Shown in pieces: positions 8,674-12,361 of a stretch of DNA of 64,000 nucleotides (the stretch's first letter is position 1; each line of letters opens with the position of its first letter). This DNA is from Isoperla grammatica (taxonomy: Eukaryota > Arthropoda > Insecta > Plecoptera > Perlodidae): positions 43,584,670 through 43,648,669 of the forward strand of contig OX246741.1 of assembly GCA_945910005.1 (NCBI GenBank), written 5' to 3'. The translations under genes were made by a program, and so were the position numbers. Under the pieces are notes generated by a model. That model made no database searches and was not told the DNA's origin. It worked only from the letters and a program-made list of their open reading frames with translations.

Positions 8674-11600
8674 AGTGTTGCCAACTGTATCTGACCGTGT
8701 GTTTGTTTACAGGATGCCTGCCCTGCTAGTCCTGGCGCTGTTGGTCGCGCTGTACAGTGTTGCCAACTGTATCTGACCGTGTGTTTGTTTACAGGATGCC
8801 TGCCCTGCTAGTCCTGGCGCTGTTGGTCGCGCTGTACAGTGTTGCCAACTGTATCTGACCGTGTGTTTGTCCACAGGATGCCTGCCCTGCTAGTCCTGGC
8901 GCTGTTGGTCGCGCTGTACAGTGTTGCCAACTGTATCTGACCGTGTGTTTGTTTACAGGATGCCTGCCCTGCTAGTCCTGGCGCTGTTGGTCGCGCTGTA
9001 CAGTGTTGCCAACTGTATCTGACTGTGTGTTTGTCCACAGGATGCCTGCCCTGCTAGTCCTGGCGCTGTTGGTCGCGCTGTACAGTGTTGCCAACTGTAT
9101 CTGACTGTGTGTTTGTTTACAGGATGCCTGCCCTGCTAGTCCTGGCGCTGTTGGTCGCGCTGTACAGTGTTGCCAACTGTATCTGACCGTGTGTTTGTTT
9201 ACAGGATGCCTGCCCTGCTAGTCCTGGCGCTGTTGGTCGCGCTGTACAGTGTTGCCAACTGTATCTGACTGTGTGTTTGTTTACAGGATGCCTGCCCTGC
9301 TAGTCCTGGCGCTGTTGGTCGCGCTGTACAGTGTTGCCAACTGTATCTGACTGTGTGTTTGTCCACAGGATGCCTGCCCTGCTAGTCCTGGCGCTGTTGG
9401 TCGCGCTGTACAGTGTTGCCAACTGTATCTGACTGTGTGTTTGTTTACAGGATGCCTGCCCTGCTAGTCCTGGCGCTGTTGGTCGCGCTGTACAGTGTTG
9501 CCAACTGTATCTGACCGTGTGTTTGTTTACAGGATGCCTGCCCTGCTAGTCCTGGCGCTGTTGGTCGCGCTGTACAGTGTTGCCAACTGTATCTGACTGT
9601 GTGTTTGTTTACAGGATGCCTGCCCTGCTAGTCCTGGCGCTGTTGGTCGCGCTGTACAGTGTTGCCAACTGTATCTGACTGTGTGTTTGTTTACAGGATG
9701 CCTGCCCTGCTAGTCCTGGCGCTGTTGGTCGCGCTGTACAGTGTTGCCAACTGTATCTGACTGTGTGTTTGTTTACAGGATGCCTGCCCTGCTAGTCCTG
9801 GCGCTGTTGGTCGCGCTGTACAGTGTTGCCAACTGTATCTGACCGTGTGTTTGTTTACAGGATGCCTGCCCTGCTAGTCCTGGCGCTGTTGGTCGCGCTG
9901 TACAGTGTTGCCAACTGTATCTGACCGTGTGTTTGTCCACAGGATGCCTGCCCTGCTAGTCCTGGCGCTGTTGGTCGCGCTGTACAGTGTTGCCAACTGT
10001 ATCTGACCGTGTGTTTGTCCACAGGATGCCTGCCCTGCTAGTCCTGGCGCTGTTGGTCGCGCTGTACAGTGTTGCCAACTGTATCTGACTGTGTGTTTGT
10101 CCACAGGATGCCTGCCCTGCTAGTCCTGGCGCTGTTGGTCGCGCTGTACAGTGTTGCCAACTGTATCTGACTGTGTGTTTGTTTACAGGATGCCTGCCCT
10201 GCTAGTCCTGGCGCTGTTGGTCGCGCTGTACAGTGTTGCCAACTGTATCTGACCGTGTGTTTGTCCACAGGATGCCTGCCCTGCTAGTCCTGGCGCTGTT
10301 GGTCGCGCTGTACAGTGTTGCCAACTGTATCTGACCGTGTGTTTGTTTACAGGATGCCTGCCCTGCTAGTCCTGGCGCTGTTGGTCGCGCTGTACAGTGT
10401 TGCCAACTGTATCTGACCGTGTGTTTGTTTACAGGATGCCTGCCCTGCTAGTCCTGGCGCTGTTGGTCGCGCTGTACAGTGTTGCCAACTGTATCTGACT
10501 GTGTGTTTGTTTACAGGATGCCTGCCCTGCTAGTCCTGGCGCTGTTGGTCGCGCTGTACAGTGTTGCCAACTGTATCTGACTGTGTGTTTGTTTACAGGA
10601 TGCCTGCCCTGCTAGTCCTGGCGCTGTTGGTCGCGCTGTACAGTGTTGCCAACTGTATCTGACTGTGTGTTTGTTTACAGGATGCCTGCCCTGCTAGTCC
10701 TGGCGCTGTTGGTCGCGCTGTACAGTGTTGCCAACTGTATCTGACTGTGTGTTTGTCCACAGGATGCCTGCCCCGCTAGTCCTGGCGCTGTTGGTCGCGC
10801 TGTACAGTGTTGCCAACTGTATCTGACTGTGTGTTTGTTTACAGGATGCCTGCCCTGCTAGTCCTGGCGCTGTTGGTCGCGCTGTACAGTGTTGCCAACT
10901 GTATCTGACTGTGTGTTTGTTTACAGGATGCCTGCCCTGCTAGTCCTGGCGCTGTTGGTCGCGCTGTACAGTGTTGCCAACTGTATCTGACTGTGTGTTT
11001 GTTTACAGGATGCCTGCCCTGCTAGTCCTGGCGCTGTTGGTCGCGCTGTACAGTGTTGCCAACTGTATCTGACTGTGTGTTTGTTTACAGGATGCCTGCC
11101 CTGCTAGTCCTGGCGCTGTTGGTCGCGCTGTACAGTGTTGCCAACTGTATCTGACTGTGTGTTTGTTTACAGGATGCCTGCCCTGCTAGTCCTGGCGCTG
11201 TTGGTCGCGCTGTACAGTGTTGCCAACTGTATCTGACTGTGTGTTTGTTTACAGGATGCCTGCCCTGCTAGTCCTGGCGCTGTTGGTCGCGCTGTACAGT
11301 GTTGCCAGCTGTATCTGACCGTGTGTTTGTTTACAGGATGCCTGCCCTGCTAGTCCTGGCGCTGTTGGTCGCGCTGTACAGTGTTGCCAACTGTATCTGA
11401 CTGTGTGTTTGTTTACAGGATGCCTGCCCTGCTAGTCCTGGCGCTGTTGGTCGCGCTGTACAGTGTTGCCAACTGTATCTGACTGTGTGTTTGTCCACAG
11501 GATGCCTGCCCTGCTAGTCCTGGCGCTGTTGGTCGCGCTGTACAGTGTTGCCAACTGTATCTGACTGTGTGTTTGTCCACAGGATGCCTGCCCTGCTAGT

Positions 11601-12361
11601 CCTGGCGCTGTTGGTCGCGCTGTACAGTGTTGCCAACTGTATCTGACCGTGTGTTTGTTTACAGGATGCCTGCCCTGCTAGTCCTGGCGCTGTTGGTCGC
11701 GCTGTACAGTGTTGCCAACTGTATCTGACTGTGTGTTTGTTTACAGGATGCCTGCCCTGCTAGTCCTGGCGCTGTTGGTCGCGCTGTACAGTGTTGCCAA
11801 CTGTATCTGACCGTGTGTTTGTTTACAGGATGCCTGCCCTGCTAGTCCTGGCGCTGTTGGTCGCGCTGTACAGTGTTGCCAACTGTATCTGACCGTGTGT
11901 TTGTCCACAGGATGCCTGCCCTGCTAGTCCTGGCGCTGTTGGTCGCGCTGTACAGTGTTGCCAACTGTATCTGACCGTGTGTTTGTCCACAGGATGCCTG
12001 CCCTGCTAGTCCTGGCGCTGTTGGTCGCGCTGTACAGTGTTGCCAACTGTATCTGACTGTGTGTTTGTCCACAGGATGCCTGCCCTGCTAGTCCTGGCGC
12101 TGTTGGTCGCGCTGTACAGTGTTGCCAACTGTATCTGACCGTGTGTTTGTCCACAGGATGCCTGCCCTGCTAGTCCTGGCGCTGTTGGTCGCGCTGTACA
12201 GTGTTGCCAACTGTATCTGACCGTGTCTTTGTCCACAGGATGCCTGCCCTGCTAGTCCTGGCGCTGTTGGTCGCGCTGTACAGTGTTGCCAACTGTATCT
12301 GACCGTGTGTTTGTCCACAGGATGCCTGCCCTGCTAGTCCTGGCGCTGTTGGTCGCGCTGT
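8674..12361 (+). repeat. 45-copy 82-bp array of splice acceptor plus start codon plus signal peptide
   Basis: The start codon recurs every 82 bp from 8714 to 12322, giving 45 copies without indels. Each unit contains a branch-point-like CTGAC, a T/G-rich tract, TTTACAG or TCCACAG, then G-ATG and codons for MPALLVLALLVAL, the hydrophobic core of a signal peptide. In copies 1-44 the frame ends 20 codons later in the next unit (…YSVANCI, stop TGA). Only copy 45 leaves the repeat, after CGCGCTGT, and continues as the real first coding exon. By my count 29 copies have TTTACAG and 16 have TCCACAG, and the last six are all TCCACAG. The array therefore arose by tandem duplication of the intron-exon border that starts this gene. 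Whether upstream acceptors are used is unknown. Confidence 0.93.

Follow-up and report, generated by a model that had tools for sequence, protein, structure and literature searches.

A 45-copy minisatellite of likely splice acceptors and predicted start codons and signal-peptide segments at the 5′ end of a predicted Isoperla grammatica gene

The locus and its predicted gene

The window analysed here, a 64,000-nucleotide stretch of contig OX246741.1 from Isoperla grammatica, contains a predicted 13-exon gene with an 82-bp tandem array at its 5′ end and a second array in predicted intron 8. Their main features are:

8674..12361, + strand: tandem array of 45 copies of an 82-bp unit, each the likely 3′ end of an intron plus the 5′ end of a first coding exon (Tandem Repeats Finder, register cut)
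8691..8713, + strand: acceptor module of copy 1, with a CTGAC branch-like motif, a T/G-rich tract, CAG and a G before the ATG at 8714, a layout common to the 45 copies
8714..8776, + strand: 20-codon open-reading frame of copy 1, MPALLVLALLVALYSVANCI followed by a stop, the 44 upstream copies all having a like frame
12282..12320, + strand: intron-side half of copy 45, carrying the 3′ splice site predicted to be productive (score 5.17, exceeded elsewhere in the array)
12321..12478, + strand: predicted first coding exon, ATG at 12322, beginning MPALLVLALLVALSGARPQSHREV and including a hydrophobic core, with the donor GTTAGC at 12479
14862..41272, + strand: predicted exons 2–13 of the same gene as the array, joined by hand at phase-consistent AG/GT junctions
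26282..29223, + strand: second array, predicted intron 8, ~75 copies of a 39-bp unit with 70 CCCCCAG acceptor-like sites (Tandem Repeats Finder, acceptor matrix)

Read from copy 45 of the array, the gene model spans 12321–41272, with a TAA ending at 41272, and encodes 1058 amino acids (1059 codons including the stop). Its exons were joined by hand, every junction is AG/GT and the phases are consistent throughout. The product as modelled starts with a predicted N-terminal signal peptide (hydrophobic core) and continues as a Thr/Pro/acidic, RGR-bearing low-complexity protein, Pfam returning no family in five open-reading-frame stretches that overlap five of the 13 exons. Exon 1 excluded, the 11 other internal exons measure 184–318 nt (median 264 nt), the 12 introns 452–8423 nt. 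A TTA microsatellite of ~41 units occupies 14730–14861, directly before the predicted exon 2 acceptor, the tract of which is therefore itself repeat-derived.

Several other features share the window. Predicted intron 10 holds a Foldback-like element (32039–37899) made up of a 170-bp tandem array (~7 copies) and its inverted counterpart (~14 copies), the arms being 90–93% alike in the six longest matches and flanking an open-reading-frame-bearing middle, in which the one frame examined (33267–33740) had no Pfam match. Downstream of the array gene there are parts of a KAT2/GCN5-type acetyltransferase gene (53785–59563), with Pfam matches to PCAF_N at 53785–54477 (E = 4.2e-95) and GNAT at 59258–59563 (E = 3.1e-9). 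A 948-bp inverted repeat, 96.8% identical, lies at 50167–51112 and 52074–53019, and a GTCT microsatellite of 43 uninterrupted units at 6510–6681. Searches of Rfam at gathering scores and a tRNA scan gave no matches.

Structure and variation of the 82-bp array

Tandem Repeats Finder, run on positions 8674–12361, returned a period of 82 and 45.0 copies as assembled, with 98% matches and 0% indels. When cut in register the units place an ATG every 82 bp from 8714 to 12322, which bears out a sequence-only reading of this DNA that had counted 45 units of this exact period over the same interval. Each unit comprises 39 bases ahead of the predicted exon start and 43 from it onwards, with GC content stepping up at the AG, from 44% on the intron side to 65% on the exon side. 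CTGAC and CAG are present in all 45 units, the A of CTGAC lying 19 bases 5′ of the predicted exon start. The inventory of the unit given in the sequence-only reading stands for CTGAC, CAG, G-ATG and the signal-like codons, which recur in each copy, but not for its pyrimidine tract, since what lies between CTGAC and CAG is in fact T/G-rich (TGTGTGTTTGTTTA in the commonest unit).

The left edge of the array is sharp, CCTCA giving way directly to AGTGTTGCC. At the right edge, as had been proposed, copy 45 alone continues into the gene (GCGCTGTCTGGGGCC); its frame is open to the donor at 12479. The unit join that we examined reads CTGT-AC-AGTGTT and the end of the last copy CTGT-CTGGGG, which would fit a tandem duplication that left a two-base filler.

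Eight of the 82 columns vary across the 45 units: three are common (C/T at unit offset 22 and TT/CC at offsets 33–34), three are changes confined to one copy each (units 26, 33 and 44), and the other two are the final bases of unit 45, at which it departs from the repeat. Over the first 44 units the mean pairwise difference is 1.9%, and divergence this low would suit an assembly artefact, in which one or a few real copies had been looped by the assembler. However, the unit variants follow one another in irregular order, which disfavours a simple loop; mixed types recur in blocks of five units at most (at units 14 and 38), three units carry changes of their own, and copies 40–45 are all of the CC type at offsets 33–34, compared with 10 of the 39 other copies (post hoc p ~0.001). 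We regard such an artefact as very improbable. Two further candidates were rejected, a higher-order repeat structure (lag 4 gave a raw p of 0.0066 among 12 lags, in an array with no mixed block above five units) and a long repeat protein running through the array, the three + strand frames each containing 29–32 stops between 8713 and 12478.

Splice-site scores

The acceptor matrix was built from the 12 other acceptors of the gene, with the array left out, and on this weak yardstick the 45 array sites score 4.43–6.29, 29 of them 6.0 or more (copy 1 scores 6.0, the last copy 5.17); the remaining AGs inside the array reach 0.26 or less. When each of the gene acceptors was scored leave-one-out, six of the 12 fell under 5.17, a value attained elsewhere by 160 of 3101 AGs on the + strand and 154 of 2943 on the − strand (5.2%). 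In all 45 copies the AG sits directly before G-ATG, and outside the two arrays just 4 of 919 + strand ATGs have AG/N-ATG at an equal score. This combination of position and matrix score is rare and thus strengthens the case for an acceptor, and from its sequence the repeated AG is likely to be one. What had been described as an amplified 5′ gene end is upheld, as a likely 3′ splice site, start codon and predicted signal-peptide segment in 45 copies.

The array contains 494 GTs, none of them donor-like (all score 0.06 or less on the donor matrix), and the 12 donors of the gene score 3.1–11.5 leave-one-out. Amplified donors of the IFI6 or ABCA7 type were rejected, the array units being without a usable 5′ splice site.

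The array acceptors had been proposed to be equal and to share one upstream donor. Their scores are indeed alike, but the donor was not located: 5′ of the array the donor matrix identified no upstream exon, nor was a promoter found, and 14 GTs there reach a score of 6 or more with none marked out as an exon end. This is what would be seen if transcription began within or 3′ of the last copy, leaving the AG before its ATG unspliced and making the array upstream DNA that happens to carry exon sequence. Against such a downstream start, an AG/N-ATG that scores this highly is found at so few other + strand ATGs (the 4 of 919 above), and CTGAC lies at a fitting distance from it; we judge it distinctly unlikely.

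Upstream open-reading frames in the array copies

All 44 upstream ATGs run for 20 codons to a stop, 42 of the frames being identical and two having one residue changed. In the pair of units examined the TGA is placed 19 nt 5′ of the next ATG, and an A stands at −3 of the ATG. An mRNA keeping n copies would thus contain n such upstream open-reading frames. Because every upstream ATG stops after 20 codons, the upstream copies cannot change the protein; the protein read from the last ATG stays as it is, and a kept stretch of array would therefore set how well the mRNA is translated, not what it encodes. The suggestion that the choice of acceptor acts as a graded setting is consequently not supported for the product. 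Use of any acceptor except the last is expected to give the same protein behind at least one upstream open-reading frame, with a loss of output rather than a variant product, through what would presumably be poor reinitiation and decay of the mRNAs that keep copies.

Which acceptor is likely to be used

As the array is without a donor-like GT, the closest credible partner downstream is the donor at 12479, and the exon ending there would be 158 nt long from acceptor 45, 240 nt from acceptor 44, 322 nt from acceptor 43 and 3766 nt from acceptor 1. Exon definition is expected for a gene layout of short exons and long introns (here 452–8423 nt), and would favour use of the last two or three acceptors. 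These would be favoured since no other acceptor of the array is within exon distance of the predicted donor. The last copy is not set apart by its sequence, what differs is its position. By size alone acceptor 44 fits the other exons better than acceptor 45, whose 158-nt exon is shorter than all 11 of them; acceptor 45 is the only one to yield an mRNA free of array upstream open-reading frames, and for this reason would be the copy that a working gene needs.

Were splicing to take whichever acceptor it meets first, copy 1 would be favoured, which counts against use of the last acceptor. The 5′-most acceptors, being made first, would then win, most mRNAs would have leaders of more than 3 kb that hold as many as 44 upstream open-reading frames, and the gene would be nearly silenced in this haplotype. 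The scores allow this, being alike along the array with copy 1 (6.0) above the last copy (5.17), and use of copy 1 would produce the 3766-nt exon with its 44 upstream ATGs. However, such an exon is ~12 times the length of the longest other exon in the model (318 nt), the frame is intact over 13 exons, as expected for a gene still in use, and normal mRNAs are reported for the amphioxus mirages and for CBS 844ins68 (PMC3087553, PMC3902484, PMC1334203). We consider first-acceptor use unlikely, if the most credible challenge to the use of the last copies.

We favour, with moderate confidence, the explanation that a minisatellite has amplified a piece comprising a likely 3′ splice site and a predicted start codon and signal segment, of which the last few acceptors, chiefly 12321, would be used whilst the rest would be intronic decoys. 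An upstream, probably non-coding exon would supply the donor, and exon definition would pick the 3′-most acceptors, those of copies 44 and 43 serving as further sites. Translation of mRNAs with kept copies would be poor, and the mRNAs themselves may be destroyed, since each copy adds an upstream open-reading frame with an A at −3. Copy number may change through unequal exchange or slippage. On this view the gene would tolerate the array as a load, which might also damp expression but would not serve as a device for making new protein forms.

A second array in predicted intron 8

The unit of the second array resembles a complete acceptor, with CTGAC, pyrimidines and CCCCCAG. Its 70 CCCCCAG sites score 5.5–8.9, compared with 13.4 (leave-one-out) for the acceptor of exon 9, and when joined in phase to exon 8 they run into stops starting at 29238 (38 sites), 27839 (19 sites) and 27058 (13 sites). 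A short-word search of the window outside the two arrays with a two-unit piece of this array gave matches of 11 bases only. That the array copies the exon 9 boundary was rejected, its unit being unlike the exon 9 acceptor by eye. We claim no function for it, because pyrimidine-rich repeats look acceptor-like by nature.

Known parallels

Human CBS 844ins68 duplicates the intron 7/exon 8 boundary, adding a single further copy at an internal exon. Its mRNA is reported to be mostly wild-type (PMC1334203), and it is like the present array in that an extra 3′ splice site arises by duplication, whilst here there are 44 extra copies and they lie at a start codon.

Closer parallels are the mirages of amphioxus (Adh3, BflGb6, BflGb9 and TnC), which are described as minisatellite-like tandem duplications over intron-exon boundaries, with regular splicing reported as undisturbed, splice signals kept in many units and unstable length (PMC3087553, PMC3902484); duplications in PGBD5 have been likened to them in a text that also names Adh and TnC (PMC3902484). 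The sequence-only reading knew of no described gene with such an acceptor/signal-peptide array, a view that these tandem duplications across intron-exon boundaries correct. The BflGb6 unit joins an intron's 3′ end to the 5′ part of an exon, as does the 82-bp unit here across its predicted boundary. Splice signals are likewise kept, here CAG and CTGAC in every one of the 45 units, with scores of 4.43–6.29. The dimensions differ: BflGb6 has six and three units of 150–160 bp in two haplotypes and Adh3 has units of 10–72 bp, against 45 units of 82 bp in our array. Unlike those mirages, the array unit also holds a predicted start codon and signal peptide, and each decoy is at the same time an upstream open-reading frame.

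Minisatellite units are also reported to act as splice sites in two human genes. In IFI6 (6-16) the units are splice donors and two downstream units are reported to be used (PMC4526556, citing Turri et al. 1995); it shares with our array the use of units as alternative splice sites, which are 5′ sites in IFI6 and 3′ sites here. In ABCA7 the unit of the intron 18 VNTR begins with a donor, some mRNAs retain a single unit whatever the size of the VNTR, and skipping of exon 19 rises with VNTR length (PMC5954066). That VNTR differs from the present array in its donor-type, 25-bp intronic unit and in that, by the same account, its length acts on exon skipping and not on unit retention.

Seen beside these parallels, our array most probably belongs to the mirage type, as a large example whose extra acceptors are decoys. 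Among the matches listed in the open-access literature there was no array of acceptor, start codon and signal peptide; the start-codon and signal-peptide content and the high copy number look new, the copy numbers of the Adh3 mirage lying outside the comparison.

Implications

A more speculative idea, which we hold to be doubtful and rather a long shot, is that the array works as a copy-number dimmer, each extra unit diverting splicing into mRNAs with upstream open-reading frames so that the number of repeats sets the output of the secreted protein and leaves the protein itself unaltered. If this were true, the repeat number could differ between individuals, or even between cells, and intron 8 would hold another damper of the same gene in its own array.

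The array also amounts to a natural competition assay, in which 45 near-identical 3′ splice sites that differ mainly in position are present in one pre-mRNA. Usage of the acceptors would be a direct test between exon definition and first-come choice, and acceptor choice could show as protein output because each decoy has a start codon and a stop. The array shows how far a minisatellite at an intron-exon boundary can expand at the start of a gene, the place where a gene is most exposed.
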